Assembly (NCBI GenBank): GCA_947475315.1
Contig: CANJMY010000005.1
Location: 1-64,000, forward strand
Source: Pseudomonadota bacterium
GTDB taxonomy: Bacteria; Myxococcota_A; UBA796; GCA-2862545
Direction of reading: 5' to 3'
DNA length: 64,000 nt
Each line of letters starts with the position of its first letter. Positions within the stretch are counted from its first letter, which is position 1. A program made the translations under genes and the position numbers. The notes below the pieces were generated by a model. The model did not search any database. It was not told where the DNA came from and saw only the letters and a list, made by a program, of their open reading frames with translations. Shown here piece after piece: positions 45,902-56,025 of this stretch.

Positions 45902-45936
45902 CGGGTTAGGTCCCCTGGAACCGTTTGGACAGGTGC

Positions 45937-46752
45937 ATGTACAACCTCCTCATCGCCGGCGCGATCTCCATTGTCGCGGCCGCGTTCGTCGTGGTCTTTG
46001 GGTTCCCCTGGTACACGGGCATCGTGCCGGGCCTGATCGTCTTCCCGCTGCTCGCGTTCGTGCTGCTCCGTCGGACCACCCAGCAGGTCGAGGCCGCCAT
46101 GCGGCCGATCCAGGCGGTCGCCGCCGAGGCGCCCCCGCGCACGCAGGCCGAGGCGAACGAGCGCATGGCGAAGATCCGCGCCACCATGGAGTCGGTGAAG
46201 GCGCAGTTCGGCTACTGGCAGCCGATGCTGTCCGGCCAGATCGACGCCCAGCTCGGCGTGCTCGACTACCAGCAGGGCCTGTTCGATGAGGCGCTGCCCA
46301 AGCTCCAGGCCAGCTATTGGAAGGATGGCATGACCAACCTCCTGATCGGCTGCATCTACTGGCGCAAGGACCAGAAGGCGGACGCGCGCAAGGCCTTCGC
46401 CGACGCCGTGACCGCCGCCCCCAAGGAGGCCATGAACTACCTGGTCCCCGCGGTGCTCTACTCGCGCGCGGGCGATCGCGACGCCGCGCTGACCTTGCTG
46501 GGCTCGTCGGGCGAGCAGCTCCCGGCCCACCCGCAGATCAAGGCGCTCAAGGCGCGGCTGGCCAACAAGCAGGACGCGGATGTGTCCATGTTCGCGGACG
46601 CCTGGCGCGGCTTCTTCCCCGAGGAGATGCAGCAGGACCTGCTCATCCGTGGTCGCCGTCAGCCGTCGGCCTACGAGGCGCTCCTCCCGAAGCACATGCA
46701 GTCTGGCCCGCCCGCGCCCAAGTCGCGCGGCAAGATGGCGCGACGCCGGTGA
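45937..46752 (+). CDS. membrane protein with TPR-like domain
   Basis: A 271-residue protein. Two N-terminal helices (LLIAGAISIVAAAFVVVFGF, then IVPGLIVFPLLAFVLL) form an anchor. A helical region with repeated Ala/Leu patterns (AQLGVLDYQQGLFDEALPKL, then DARKAFADAVTAAP) reads as tetratricopeptide-like. The tail is basic. ATG 45937 is preferred to a TTG at 45925. It is the first gene of a compact six-gene run; the next gene starts 4 bases after its stop. Confidence 0.75.
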   Translation: MYNLLIAGAISIVAAAFVVVFGFPWYTGIVPGLIVFPLLAFVLLRRTTQQVEAAMRPIQAVAAEAPPRTQAEANERMAKIRATMESVKAQFGYWQPMLSGQIDAQLGVLDYQQGLFDEALPKLQASYWKDGMTNLLIGCIYWRKDQKADARKAFADAVTAAPKEAMNYLVPAVLYSRAGDRDAALTLLGSSGEQLPAHPQIKALKARLANKQDADVSMFADAWRGFFPEEMQQDLLIRGRRQPSAYEALLPKHMQSGPPAPKSRGKMARRR

Positions 46753-46756
46753 TCGA

Positions 46757-47617
46757 TTGAGCACCACGCTCGCGGACACGCTCGCGCGCGACGTCCCGTG
46801 CGCGGCGATCGATCTGGAGATGACTGGGCTCGACCCGGTCCACGATCGCATTTGTGAGATCGGCGTGGTCGGCGGCGACGGCGACGAGGCGACGCGCGCG
46901 TGGTCCACCCTGGTGCGGACCGACGTGCGCATGTCGGACGAGGCCTTCGGCATCCACGGGATCACGCCCGACGAGCTGGAGTCCGCGCCGTCCTTCGCCG
47001 CGGTGGTCGAGCCGCTGATGGCGGCGCTGGACGGGCGGATGGTGGTGGGCCACGGGCTCGACATCGACCGCAAGTTCCTGGCCGCGGCCTGGACGCGCCT
47101 CGGGAAGGAGTGGAACGAGGACGCCTGGATCGACACCGTGGTGGTCGCTCGTCGGGCGCTGGCCCTGTCCAGCCACAAGCTGGTCGACCTGTGCGACGCG
47201 CTCGGCGTGCCGAAGGGCCGCCTGCACCGCGCGCTCGACGACGCACAAGCGGCGTACGGCGTCTGGAGGGCGATCCTCCAGCTGCTCGATCCGGAGGGCG
47301 TGCTCACCGTGCGGGGGGTCCGCGAGCTGATCGACGGGCTGGCGCCGCGCTCGCCGTTTCGCGCCCAGCAGAAGCAGCTGCTCCGCGGCGCGTTCAGTTC
47401 ACGAACTTGTGTGACGGTGGCCTACCTTTCGCAGGACGAGGCCGGTAGACTGAGGCGTACCGAGAGGGAGATCGAGATCTGGAAGCTTGCCTTTCCTCGA
47501 ATCCAGGGCTGGTGTCGGCTGCGCAATGAGGAGCGCGTGTTCCGGCTGGACCGTATGCTCTGCGTGGAGCTGACGAACCGGAGCTACGTGATCCCTGCGT
47601 TCTCGGCCCGGATCTGA
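46757..47617 (+). CDS. DEDDh exonuclease fused to a WYL-like domain
   Basis: A 286-residue protein. Residues 15-175 form an exonuclease of the polymerase III epsilon/RNase T type: AIDLEMTGLDP (Asp19, Glu21), FGIHGIT, VGHGLDIDRKFL (Asp104) and HRALDDAQAAY (His157, Asp162). The C-terminal 80 residues (about 207-280) follow the WYL pattern: VTVAYLSQDEAGRLRRTERE, then WCRLRNEERVFRLDRML. WYL domains bind nucleic acid or ligands and are common in regulators. The combination is unusual. TTG 46757 lacks a strong ribosome site. The next gene starts 3 bases after its stop. Confidence 0.8.
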   Translation: MSTTLADTLARDVPCAAIDLEMTGLDPVHDRICEIGVVGGDGDEATRAWSTLVRTDVRMSDEAFGIHGITPDELESAPSFAAVVEPLMAALDGRMVVGHGLDIDRKFLAAAWTRLGKEWNEDAWIDTVVVARRALALSSHKLVDLCDALGVPKGRLHRALDDAQAAYGVWRAILQLLDPEGVLTVRGVRELIDGLAPRSPFRAQQKQLLRGAFSSRTCVTVAYLSQDEAGRLRRTEREIEIWKLAFPRIQGWCRLRNEERVFRLDRMLCVELTNRSYVIPAFSARI

Positions 47618-47620
47618 CCG

Positions 47621-48724
47621 ATGCGCATCGTCCACCTCTGCCGCGTCGCGCCGCCTTCCATTGGAGGGATGGAGACCATGGTCGCCGGGCTCGCCCGTCA
47701 CCAGGCCGAGGAGGGGCATGACGTCCGCATCGTGACGACGATGGAGGAGCCCCCGCCGAGCAAGAAGCGCAGCCGCCACATCGCCACCACGCACCTCAAG
47801 ATGTTCGGGTCGCCGCGCTACCCGTTCGCCTGGGGTCTGAAGGCGGCCATCGCCGACGCCGACGTGGTGCACGTGCACGGCATCGACGGGCTGGCGGACC
47901 AAGCGCTGACCGTGCGCGGCCCGAACACCGCGGTGGGTGTCTCGACGCACGGCGGCTACCTGCACACCATGGACGACTGGCGGTTCAAACAGATCTTCTT
48001 GCGGACGTGGACCCGCTGGAGCCTGCGCCGCGCCGACGCCATCTGGTACACGTCGCCTGCGGATCGGGACGCGCTCTCGCCGGCGCAGCTGCCGGGGGCG
48101 ATCGTCCCCAACGGCGTGGACATTGCGCCGTACCGTTGGGCGCGGGAGCACCGCGAGCCCGAGCGTGGCCTGTTCCTCTACCTGGGCCGCGTCGATGTCC
48201 ACAAGGGCCTGGACCGGCTGTTCCGCACGCTGGTCGAGATCAAGAAGAAGGACCCGAACCCGTTCACGCTCGAGGTCGTGGGCCCGGTGACGGACGCCAG
48301 CCACATGGAGGCCATGGAGACGTTCGGCCGCGCGCTCGGGCTCCGCGAGAATCTGGTGTGGCGTGGTGCGCTGCACCGCGACGACGTGGTCGAGCTGCTC
48401 GCCCGCTGCGAGCTGGCCTTCTTCCCCTCCACGCACGAGGGCTTCGGCATCGCCTTGGTCGAGACGATGGGCGCGGGCGTCGCGCCGATCGCCCAGGACA
48501 TCCCGGCCCACGCCGAGAAGGTGACGGACGGCGAGCACGGTGATCTGGTCGACTTCGACCACCCCGAGGAGACCGCGAACATCATCCACCAGCTCCGCAA
48601 GCGGGACCGCCGCAAGTTGGAGGCCGCTGCCGCGCGTCGGGCGGAGTGGTTCTCTTGGGAGAGCGTGTACCCGGCGTGGGAGAAGGCCTACGAGCGCATG
48701 CTCGAGGGCCGGAACCCGCGTTGA
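47621..48724 (+). CDS. GT4-family glycosyltransferase
   Basis: A 367-residue GT-B enzyme. The N-domain has RVAPPSIGGMETMVAGLARH and the C-domain LYLGRVDVHKGLDRLF, with the retaining-type E-x7-E in STHEGFGIALVETMGAG. A sugar nucleotide donor is typical, but donor and acceptor are unknown. It is probably cytoplasmic or at the inner-membrane face. It lies in the six-gene run, before the Alg14/Alg13-like pair. Confidence 0.93.
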   Translation: MRIVHLCRVAPPSIGGMETMVAGLARHQAEEGHDVRIVTTMEEPPPSKKRSRHIATTHLKMFGSPRYPFAWGLKAAIADADVVHVHGIDGLADQALTVRGPNTAVGVSTHGGYLHTMDDWRFKQIFLRTWTRWSLRRADAIWYTSPADRDALSPAQLPGAIVPNGVDIAPYRWAREHREPERGLFLYLGRVDVHKGLDRLFRTLVEIKKKDPNPFTLEVVGPVTDASHMEAMETFGRALGLRENLVWRGALHRDDVVELLARCELAFFPSTHEGFGIALVETMGAGVAPIAQDIPAHAEKVTDGEHGDLVDFDHPEETANIIHQLRKRDRRKLEAAAARRAEWFSWESVYPAWEKAYERMLEGRNPR

Positions 48725-51593: not shown

Positions 51594-51667
51594 CTACGTG
51601 TCGCGAAGCGCGGAGATCACGCCTCTGCGACTACGTGTCGCGAAGCGCGGAGATCGCGCCTCTGCGA
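51594..51667. repeat. 37-bp tandem duplication
   Basis: Two adjoining 37-base copies (51594-51630 and 51631-51667) differ at a single base (A/G). Both start CTACGTGTCGCGAAGCGC, and a third CTAC begins at 51668 inside the porin stop codon. The sequence lies just past the 3' ends of two convergent genes. Confidence 0.95.
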
Positions 51668-52933: not shown

Positions 52934-52974
52934 CGGTTCCGAGCCTCGTGTCGGGGCGCCATGAGGACAGCGCC

Positions 52975-55900
52975 ATGGTCTCGATTCCCTCCCGCTCTAT
53001 TGCTTCGATCGCCGTCGCGCTCGCGTTGTCCGGCTGTGACCGGGACGTGCCGACGGGGCCCTGGGCGCGCGCCAAGGTGATCGAGCAGCTCGACGACAGC
53101 ATCGGCGGGACCAAGGGCCTGGCGCGTCCGGGCGACTTCGCCCTGGAGAACGACAAGTTCCGGGTCAACGTGCTCAGCGGCCGCACCAGCACCGGCCCCG
53201 GCCTGTACGGCGGCAGCGTGGTGGACGGCGATCTGCAGTGGGCGGATCCGGCGCTGCGCGGCGGCCACGGCCTGGACCAGTTCAACGAGATGTTCCCAAC
53301 CGTGAACATGAACACGCCCAAGTCCGGCAGCCCGCCCGACGTGTTCGTGCTCAAGGACGGCAAGGACGGTGGAGACGCCGTGGTGCGGGTGGAGGGCCCC
53401 GGCGAGCCCTTCCTGAGCATGCTTTCCGTGCTCTGGGGCCTCGTGGGCATGCCCGGCATGTGGACCACCACGGACTACACGGTGCAGCCCGGCGTCCCGT
53501 GGATGAAGGTGAGCACGGTCGTCACGCTGGCCGGCGAGGCCGACATCCCCGTGGTGAAGCCGGTCGTCGGGGACGTGCCGCCCACGCCGATCTCCCCGGC
53601 CACGGGCAGCTTCGACGTGCTCGGCATCGCGCTCTCGACCGGCGTCGCCATGGGCGACTTCTGGCTGGCGGGCGGCAGCGTCGACGTGTTCGGGCCGGGC
53701 ATCGGCTTTGACGAAGACGGCGCGGTCTACCGCAAGATGATCGCCGGCGAGAACACCTTCCAGCAGCCCTTCGAGTTCCCGTTCCTGGCCGCGGTCGGTG
53801 ACGGCGTCAGCTACGGCATCGCGGCGGCGGACGGCAACCTGTTCGTCCCCCTGTTCACCGCGTCGCAGACCGTGGTCATCGGCGGCGGCAACGACGGAAC
53901 GCTGCCGAGCGACAAATTCCGCTTCCCGGCCAACACCCAGTTCTCCTACGACCGCTACTTCTTCGTGGGCGACGGCGACGTGGGCAGCATCGTCGACCAG
54001 TACGTGGAGGCGCGCAAGGTGCCGCACGGCACGGTGACCGGGCACGTGTTCGAGCAGGGCACCAGCGAGCCCCTCTCCAAGATCGACGTGTTCGTGTACA
54101 AGCCGGGCGACGAGTACCCGTTCAGCCAGTGGCGCACGGATCACCGGGCGGACGACGGCCTGGCCGACGGCTCGTTCGGCGGCTCGCTGCCGGTGGGCGA
54201 CTGGGAGCTGATGGTCCACCAGCACGGCCGACCGACGTCCGATCGCCTGCCGATCGCGGTGCGCGAAGGTGAGGAGTCCACGGTCCAGCTCGAGGCCCTG
54301 CGCGGCGGCGTGCTGACCTTCACCGTGCACGACCAGACCGGCGAGAAGCTCCCGGCCAAGGTGACCTTGTTCCGCAAGGACGACAACACGGCGACCAGCA
54401 ACCGCCCCGACCTGGGCGATCCCTACATCGGCGGCCAGCCGGAGTGGGTGCTGTTCGCAGAGACGGGTGAGGGCGAGATCCCGCTGCCGCCCGGCGACTA
54501 CTACGCGGTCGCAAGCCGCGGCCTCGAGTACGAGATCGACCGCTCGGACGACTTCCACATCGACGCGCTCCAGGGCAAGCACCTCGACCTCACGGTGGAC
54601 CGCTCGATCGACACCTCGGGCTGGGTGTCGGCCGACTTCCACGTGCACAGCGCGCCCAGCCATGACTCCGGCGTGTCGCTCCCCATGCGCGTGAAGACCA
54701 TGGCGGCTGAGGGCGTCGAGTTCTTCGCCGCCACCGACCACGACTACATCAGCGACTTCGCGCCGGTCATCCAGGACCTCGGCCTGGAGAACTGGGTCCA
54801 GAGCACGCCCGGCGTCGAGACGACCACCATCGAGATCGGCCACTACCTGGCGTTCCCGCTGCAGAAGCAGTGGCTGGGTGACGTCGGCGGCGCGATGGAC
54901 TGGACCGGCAAGCTGCCGGAGCAGATCATCGCCGAGCTGCGCAAGCAGGGGACGGACGCCGGCTTCGATCCGTTCGTCTTCCTCGCGCACCCGCGCGACG
55001 GCCTGCTCGGCGGCTTCGACCAGTACGGCTTCGACCCGTTCGGGGGCGCGCCCAACGCGGACGGAACGCCCGGCGCCATGGCTTACAGCACGCCCTTGCT
55101 CAACTCGTTCAACCCGCTCATCTCGGACTTTGCCCCGCCGGTCAGCATGGACGGCATCGAGCTGTTCACCGGCAAGCGCCTGGACGTGCACCGCAAGCCC
55201 ACCAAGCCGGAGCAGGACGGCTACGCCGCGGACGACGGCACGGACGCCTTCGACTTCATGTCGCGCACGATGCAGGAGCAGACCGATCTGGTCAACGGCA
55301 CGTACCGCCTGTCGAACGACCTCGACGGCAACGTGGACGACTGGTTCACGCTGCTCAACCTCGGCTACCGGTTCACCGCGCTCGGCAACTCGGACACGCA
55401 CGGCACCTCGTCGATCGAGGCCGGCTGCCCGCGCAACTACGTGCTGTCCGAGACCGACGACCCCGCCTACCTGGACCCGCAGACCATCGCGGACTCCGTG
55501 CGGGATCACCACGTCGTCGCCTCCTACGGGCCCTTCCTGCGCATGTGGATCAACGGCGCGGAGATCGGCTCGTCGATCGAGTCGAAGGGCAAGCCGCTCC
55601 AGATGCAGATCGAGGTGCAGGCGCCGAGCTGGGTCGCGGTCGACCGCGTCGAGCTTTACGAGAACGGCACGCTCGTCCAGGAGTGGGCGGTCCCCGACGC
55701 GCCGTCGAACGAGCGCTTCAACGAGTCCTTCGAGTGGACCCCGACCAAGGACGCCTGGTACGTCGCCATCGCCATGGGCGAGAAGGGGCTGGACCCGGTG
55801 TTCACCCGGGTGGACATCCCGTACCTGCCGCTCGACGAGGTCGTGATCTCGGCGCTCGGAGGGTTGCCTGCGGTGCAGAGCTTCCTGTCCGCGCCGATCC

Positions 55901-56025
55901 CGTTCCCCAAGGAGTACCCGGTCTACCCGTACGCGCTGACCAACCCGATCTGGGTGGACGTGGACGGGGGCGGGTTCATGCCTGCCGGTCGCCCGGCGTG
56001 GCTGATCCCGGCCGCGTCGGAGTAG
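52975..56025 (+). CDS. large lipoprotein with PHP-type metallohydrolase domain (CehA/McbA-like)
   Basis: A 1016-residue lipoprotein with lipobox LSGC after a 20-residue signal. The first 350 residues are beta-rich and unassigned. Two carboxypeptidase-regulatory-like modules follow, around TGHVFEQGTSEPLSKIDVFV and FTVHDQTGEKLPAKVTLF. The PHP domain has DFHVHS (554-559), ATDHDY (586-591) and GNSDTHG (804-810), the metal ligands of CehA/McbA-like hydrolases. The substrate is unknown. GAGGA is 7 bases before ATG 52975. Proximity to a porin suggests surface work on an imported or exported compound. Confidence 0.85.
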   Translation: MVSIPSRSIASIAVALALSGCDRDVPTGPWARAKVIEQLDDSIGGTKGLARPGDFALENDKFRVNVLSGRTSTGPGLYGGSVVDGDLQWADPALRGGHGLDQFNEMFPTVNMNTPKSGSPPDVFVLKDGKDGGDAVVRVEGPGEPFLSMLSVLWGLVGMPGMWTTTDYTVQPGVPWMKVSTVVTLAGEADIPVVKPVVGDVPPTPISPATGSFDVLGIALSTGVAMGDFWLAGGSVDVFGPGIGFDEDGAVYRKMIAGENTFQQPFEFPFLAAVGDGVSYGIAAADGNLFVPLFTASQTVVIGGGNDGTLPSDKFRFPANTQFSYDRYFFVGDGDVGSIVDQYVEARKVPHGTVTGHVFEQGTSEPLSKIDVFVYKPGDEYPFSQWRTDHRADDGLADGSFGGSLPVGDWELMVHQHGRPTSDRLPIAVREGEESTVQLEALRGGVLTFTVHDQTGEKLPAKVTLFRKDDNTATSNRPDLGDPYIGGQPEWVLFAETGEGEIPLPPGDYYAVASRGLEYEIDRSDDFHIDALQGKHLDLTVDRSIDTSGWVSADFHVHSAPSHDSGVSLPMRVKTMAAEGVEFFAATDHDYISDFAPVIQDLGLENWVQSTPGVETTTIEIGHYLAFPLQKQWLGDVGGAMDWTGKLPEQIIAELRKQGTDAGFDPFVFLAHPRDGLLGGFDQYGFDPFGGAPNADGTPGAMAYSTPLLNSFNPLISDFAPPVSMDGIELFTGKRLDVHRKPTKPEQDGYAADDGTDAFDFMSRTMQEQTDLVNGTYRLSNDLDGNVDDWFTLLNLGYRFTALGNSDTHGTSSIEAGCPRNYVLSETDDPAYLDPQTIADSVRDHHVVASYGPFLRMWINGAEIGSSIESKGKPLQMQIEVQAPSWVAVDRVELYENGTLVQEWAVPDAPSNERFNESFEWTPTKDAWYVAIAMGEKGLDPVFTRVDIPYLPLDEVVISALGGLPAVQSFLSAPIPFPKEYPVYPYALTNPIWVDVDGGGFMPAGRPAWLIPAASE

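Follow-up and report, generated by a model that had tools for sequence, protein, structure and literature searches.

The gene at 46757..47617 on the forward strand of the window (the whole 64,000-nucleotide stretch analysed here) encodes a 286-residue protein in which a DEDDh exonuclease is fused to a C-terminal WYL domain. The protein is probably an exonuclease whose WYL domain grips single-stranded nucleic acid, most likely ssDNA, aiding affinity and/or processivity in housekeeping DNA maintenance. What is established is the presence of both domains, the conservation of the catalytic residues and of the arginines, an Sm-like fold at the level of prediction, and the retention of the gene in its lineage. 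The exonuclease-WYL pairing is real, already on record, recurs in other bacteria and is fairly ordinary. WYL fused to a "3'->5' exoRNase" is listed as an architecture in the accessible text of the 2014 survey by Makarova et al. (PMC4012209). By name, this is the same domain pair and presumably the same architecture; in the available part of that paper the entry is a list item without sequence, lineage or function for comparison. A fusion both widespread and already characterised would, by the preliminary description, have counted against it. The fusion is indeed widespread and listed in print, whereas no experimental study of an exonuclease-WYL fusion was found in the open-licence PMC literature.

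Gene structure and the exonuclease domain

The coordinates, frame and length given for the ORF in the preliminary description are correct. The gene opens with a TTG start at 46757, shortly past the stop of the upstream gene (46752), and ends with TGA. The upstream gene (45925..46752, forward strand) encodes a weak TPR-like protein and is likely co-transcribed with the fusion gene. The whole-protein structure prediction has a mean pLDDT of 87; the lowest values of the core, about 61, lie around residues 191-200 in the linker (residues 176-207; 47282..47377, forward strand), which includes the start of the WYL helix. With the same-genus ortholog as reference, the gene is under purifying selection: dN/dS is ~0.12 for the whole gene. 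The exonuclease has a value of 0.105; that of the WYL part, 0.21, rests on only three synonymous and two non-synonymous changes.

The exonuclease domain (RNase_T/DnaQ-like) occupies residues 17-168 (46805..47260, forward strand), as identified by Pfam and by fold matches. The RNase_T (PF00929) match has E=8.2e-29 and 101.7 bits against a gathering score of 24, and the domain was found in all 23 relatives scanned singly (E<=0.001). Asp19, Glu21, Asp104, His157 and Asp162 lie exactly where they had been placed, and all five are invariant in the 23 sequences of alignment A1, from which two of 25 loci (L018 and L019) were left out for in-frame stops. In a wider 13-row set, D162 is present in 12 rows and the other four residues in all 13. 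Judging by these residues, the protein would be a catalytically competent DnaQ-type DEDDh 3'-5' exonuclease, and we infer its enzyme activity from them.

The solved exonucleases nearest to the domain by profile were a PolC-type exonuclease (2.4e-47), PolC (1.4e-37), the DinG exonuclease (1.2e-34) and Pol III epsilon (7.3e-31), and both DNA- and RNA-acting DEDDh enzymes of solved structure matched the profile. Comparison of the predicted model with solved structures agreed with this order (PolC Z 24, DinG 22-23, epsilon 21-22). The PolC-type, Pol III epsilon and DinG domains (2p1j, 1j53, 8zef) share the DEDDh fold and the catalytic residues but are parts of polymerases or helicases, and none of them is known to carry a WYL domain. 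In NCBIfam, only the exonuclease half was matched, by DnaQ-like families; among the best 25 of 29 matches, all were far under cut-off except the general dnaq domain family, which fell just under it (69 of 71.5 bits). Therefore, no curated NCBIfam family among these best 25 of 29 matches names the exonuclease-WYL architecture.

In the WYL-coding part (window 47370-47614), GC3 is about 0.79, down from about 0.95, a drop that the relatives taken together do not show. The same part has diverged little from the same-genus ortholog at synonymous sites, with 3/53 sites changed compared with about 34/149 in the exonuclease and linker (Fisher p 0.006, counts rounded). A recent gain of the WYL part, considered from the lower GC3, was rejected because the fusion is present in much of the order and GC3 is lower in the last 28% of the gene in only 11 of the 22 members tested.

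Identity of the C-terminal WYL domain

Pfam places a WYL domain (PF13280) at residues 208-271 (47378..47569, forward strand), with E=1e-5 and 25.9 bits, above the gathering score of 21.8, and a WYL match was present in 22 of 23 relatives scanned singly (E<=0.001). A C-terminal profile was made of 13 rows, i.e., the window protein and 12 loci from the species scan described below, including L060, which has a weak WYL match. Searched against all PDB chain sequences, this profile gave 18 matches at E<=1. The first 16 (E<=0.0034) were all WYL-domain proteins or PIF1-type helicases matched in their C-terminal WYL region; PafBC (2.7e-15), a PIF1-type helicase (1.2e-13) and PafC (5.5e-11) came first, followed by CapW, BrxR, DriD-type and other WYL proteins. 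PDB entries 8bnv and 8bns were assigned to the PIF1-WYL type by match position. The last two matches (E 0.09 and 0.8) were unrelated.

The whole-chain structure-match list from VIA-align held exonuclease matches only because the exonuclease domain fills the list, and the WYL fold was therefore tested alone. Folded separately, the C-terminal part is predicted to form helices and five strands, with a mean pLDDT of 79. The model matched PafBC (Z 10.9, rmsd 3.2, 87 aligned), RNA polymerase-bound PafBC (10.8), BrxR (10.7), ssDNA-bound CapW (10.6) and DriD (9.6), and matched Sm and Hfq proteins at similar or lower Z. The preliminary description had called this segment WYL-like and proposed that its fold be checked. 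That assignment is borne out by the Pfam score above cut-off, by the WYL matches of the profile in the PDB and by the predicted Sm-like fold, for which WYL proteins are the best structural matches. A chance WYL match was rejected, as 22 of 23 relatives have it and the profile and fold matches agree. Pfam also gave a weak match to HTH_31 (residues 209-240, E 0.019, under cut-off), which was rejected, since this stretch is predicted as a helix and barrel strands.

Within the domain, Y223, R237, C253, R256, R260, F262 and R266 are invariant in all 23 sequences, and R263 is conserved as well. The W-Y-L triplet itself is degenerate (P247-R248-I249): Arg248 stands at the Tyr position, by spacing that of the PafB tyrosine, and 7 of 23 relatives have Tyr there. 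According to the accessible text of Makarova et al. (PMC4012209), the triplet is weakly kept in the family and four basic residues and a cysteine are conserved instead. R237, R256, R260 and R266 together with C253, present in 23 of 23 sequences, are putative counterparts of these residues. R256/R260/R263/R266 have the 4-3-3 spacing of PafB R204/R208/R211/R214 and of DdPif1 R491/R495/R498/R501, as given in the available parts of PMC11804915 and PMC9964779, and the invariant R237 was placed opposite PafB R181 and DdPif1 R464 by eye from profile alignments. In PafB, ssDNA binding is reported to be lost in the mutants R181A, R211A/R214A, R181A/R204A/R208A and Y196A (PMC11804915, available part), and F262 and Y223 are counterparts of residues that are needed in PafBC according to the excerpts of PMC6789036.

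The domain is homologous to the WYL domains of PafBC, DriD, CapW and BrxR and has the same fold, with an arginine ladder common to PafB. DriD, CapW and BrxR carry an N-terminal helix-turn-helix. PafBC differs from our protein in having a helix-turn-helix in place of the nuclease and a C-terminal WCX domain; here the N-terminus is the exonuclease, and the chain ends 15 residues past the WYL match and lacks a WCX extension. PIF1 helicases of Thermotoga elfii and Deferribacter desulfuricans likewise combine an enzyme with a C-terminal WYL domain, but have a 5'-3' SF1 helicase where our protein has an exonuclease. DdPif1 shares the arginine spacing and, in the available text of PMC9964779, lacks the aromatic pair of DriD.

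Distribution and genomic neighbourhood

A search for the same domain order in other genomes, proposed in the preliminary description, showed that the fusion is widespread. It was found at full length (query start <=16, end >=267) in 39 of 58 related genomes, comprising 15 of 21 in the same family (window genome included) and 24 of 37 other members of the order; four of the 39 matches run over an in-frame stop. The other 19 genomes had no full-length match; in G008, which is among these, a fragment of 45% identity lies at the end of a contig and may be a truncated copy. Across the phylum to which the window belongs, full-length matches were found in at least 47 of 282 genomes. With alignment A2 and the seed genome included, full-length matches were also found in 21 of 100 genomes of the class Anaerolineae, where one more is cut at its start, and in 3 of 61 genomes of the Synergistota set. 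The fusion is old and is stably carried in the lineage.

In a one-genome-per-species scan for A1-like loci, the best 80 of 375 confirmed loci were examined. In eleven of these 80, the C-terminal part matched the WYL profile built from the family itself (E<=1.1e-8): three from the window's own lineage, five from Anaerolineae, two from Synergistota and one from Armatimonadota. L060 (Bacteriovoracales) aligns at full length only in the wider alignment A2, and the other 68 of the 80 loci had no match to the family's WYL profile. Ten loci from the scan (L037, L041, L050, L055, L062, L081, L095, L099, L101 and L105) are DnaQ-like exonucleases of Bacillota (Clostridia) with a different, shared C-terminal tail. 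This tail ends in a serine-arginine-rich helix-like motif and represents another DEDDh extension.

A tree of the exonuclease domain was computed from 103 rows, 35 of which are fusions; it is a quick tree with SH-aLRT support only. It needs four changes for the fusion, and the starred branches force only one, so that either one or several origins of the fusion would be compatible with it. The window protein, its same-genus ortholog and one more member of the family share a long branch that is separate from most of that family.

The downstream neighbour (47621..48724, forward strand) encodes a family 4/group 1 glycosyltransferase. The window neighbours further include, besides the weak TPR protein, a rhomboid protein, a CDP-alcohol phosphatidyltransferase-like protein, an epoxyqueuosine reductase-like protein, three glycosyltransferase-like ORFs in all, a Ser/Thr kinase, a porin and a large protein that weakly matches a carboxypeptidase-regulatory domain. 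Neighbourhood counts rest on the 32 of 51 stretches in which a simple gene caller kept the fusion gene (19 missed it), and two of the 32, L029 and L132, are the same contig. Among these stretches, the large protein (cluster 1) lies directly upstream of the fusion gene in 14 of 15 from other families of the order, and the TPR protein does so in 5 of 7 from the window's family; in the window, the same cluster-1 gene is found further along the stretch. This pattern looks like chromosomal order kept by descent, not like an island. Anaerolineae and Synergistota members, read by eye, have other neighbours, and one conserved operon across phyla is unsupported, as the neighbours differ between the Myxococcota-like, Anaerolineae and Synergistota members.

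Two side observations were made in the window. A 1025-residue putative lipoprotein (52948-56025), conserved across the order, is encoded immediately upstream of the fusion gene in other families; its only Pfam match is weak, and its central part, judged by eye, seems PHP-like. At 51594-51667, in the intergenic region between the kinase and porin genes, a 37-base unit is repeated head to tail in two nearly perfect copies (97% identical).

WYL domains had been associated with defence or repair genes in the preliminary description, and no defence link was found around the gene in the window. PADLOC, run on ten window neighbours, matched the kinase alone, with kinase models of defence systems; we read these as matches that any such kinase would meet. 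A test of 20.9 kb found no CRISPR-like array among the 20 largest repeat families, out of at least 60. A defence or CRISPR island was therefore rejected for the window. A mobile gene was rejected as well: tblastn of the protein found no single place covering 80% in 50,697 phage or 72,556 plasmid records, and a scan of viral contigs with the single protein found no relative.

Possible roles of the WYL domain

Our best reading is that the WYL domain is probably an ssDNA-gripping accessory module like that of PIF1-WYL or the SH3-like domain of exonuclease I, rather than a ligand-gated switch. While the 3' end occupies the active site, the domain would grip the single strand upstream of it, which is most likely ssDNA. 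This grip would tether the substrate and raise affinity and/or processivity, and the exonuclease would serve housekeeping DNA maintenance. Both ssDNA binding by the WYL domain and its aiding, rather than gating, of processing are what we infer. This reading is supported by the invariant catalytic set, by the nearness of the exonuclease domain to those of PolC and DinG, by the arginine spacing shared with PafB and DdPif1, and by PIF1-WYL being the second-best match of the C-terminal profile; in Thermotoga elfii PIF1, the WYL domain is reported in the available part of PMC9964779 to be an ssDNA (substrate) binding module, not an allosteric switch. Against it, the triplet Tyr, which as PafB Y196 is essential for ssDNA binding (PMC11804915, available part), is not conserved, and DNA and RNA substrates are indistinguishable from sequence, the accessible 2014 survey text saying exoRNase (PMC4012209). 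No repair or replication gene was found among the conserved neighbours in the window and the 32 stretches, and the pathway is therefore a guess.

The preliminary description had suggested ligand-gated cleavage, in which the WYL domain binds a signal other than the substrate (short ssDNA, an oligonucleotide or a nucleotide) and thereby activates the exonuclease, in the way that ssDNA activates PafBC and DriD. We regard this as a minor possibility. The conserved arginine ladder agrees with it, as do the WYL domains of PafBC, which are true ssDNA sensors in the available text of PMC11804915, and the prediction by Makarova et al. that enzyme-fused WYL domains sense ligands (PMC4012209, accessible part). 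However, the ssDNA tunnel of PafBC is built with the help of its WCX domain (PMC11804915, same excerpts), and our protein ends 15 residues past the WYL match; the T. elfii helicase, the only characterised enzyme fusion that we met, uses its WYL domain for substrate binding (PMC9964779, as above); and no linked signal-producing gene was recognised in the window. Ligand gating is the more interesting reading, yet nothing here favours it and it is not the simplest. A self-sensing exonuclease, in which ssDNA or a damage-derived oligonucleotide on the WYL barrel would allosterically license 3'-end degradation, is unlikely; one polypeptide would then detect and remove the DNA-damage signal that elsewhere drives WYL transcription factors, acting as an off switch or ssDNA-clearing enzyme.

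It is doubtful that the protein is an RNA-processing exonuclease, with a DEDDh/RNase T-like domain acting on RNA and an Hfq-like WYL barrel binding it. The Sm/Hfq fold matches, the wording of Makarova et al. ("3'->5' exoRNase"; PMC4012209, accessible part) and the RNA-acting enzymes that match the exonuclease profile alongside DNA-acting ones are consistent with such a role, but the nearest solved exonuclease domains belong to DNA polymerases and DinG, and the WYL domains of PafBC (PMC11804915) and DriD bind ssDNA in the available accounts. An antiviral effector, with the nuclease set loose on phage infection or by CRISPR signals, is highly improbable. PADLOC DEDDh and WYL models do match the two halves of the protein, but these models are generic domains, and the window neighbours are of housekeeping type, only one of ten giving PADLOC matches at 1e-5, to kinase models. 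The absence of a CRISPR-like array in the part of the window tested, the absence of full-length copies from the phage and plasmid collections, and retention in most of the related genomes, with conserved chromosomal order where tested, also argue against it.

The accessory-module reading has a counterpart in layout. In Escherichia coli exonuclease I, an SH3-like barrel that assists in holding ssDNA comes after the DEDDh exonuclease; the enzyme is longer and has an extra helical domain. Foldseek repeatedly aligned the whole model with it (1fxx; 272-324 columns, TMq 0.5) at an rmsd of 10-12 A. The domains are therefore arranged differently, and the enzyme is cited for its similar layout, with no kinship implied. 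By itself, the exonuclease-WYL fusion opens no new system. Because the gene is stably carried by the lineage, it likely matters for the cell. If the WYL domain does grip the substrate, this exonuclease would be a second enzyme class, after the PIF1 helicase, in which a WYL domain acts directly on the substrate, and it would help to settle whether WYL domains fused to enzymes act as sensors or as grips.
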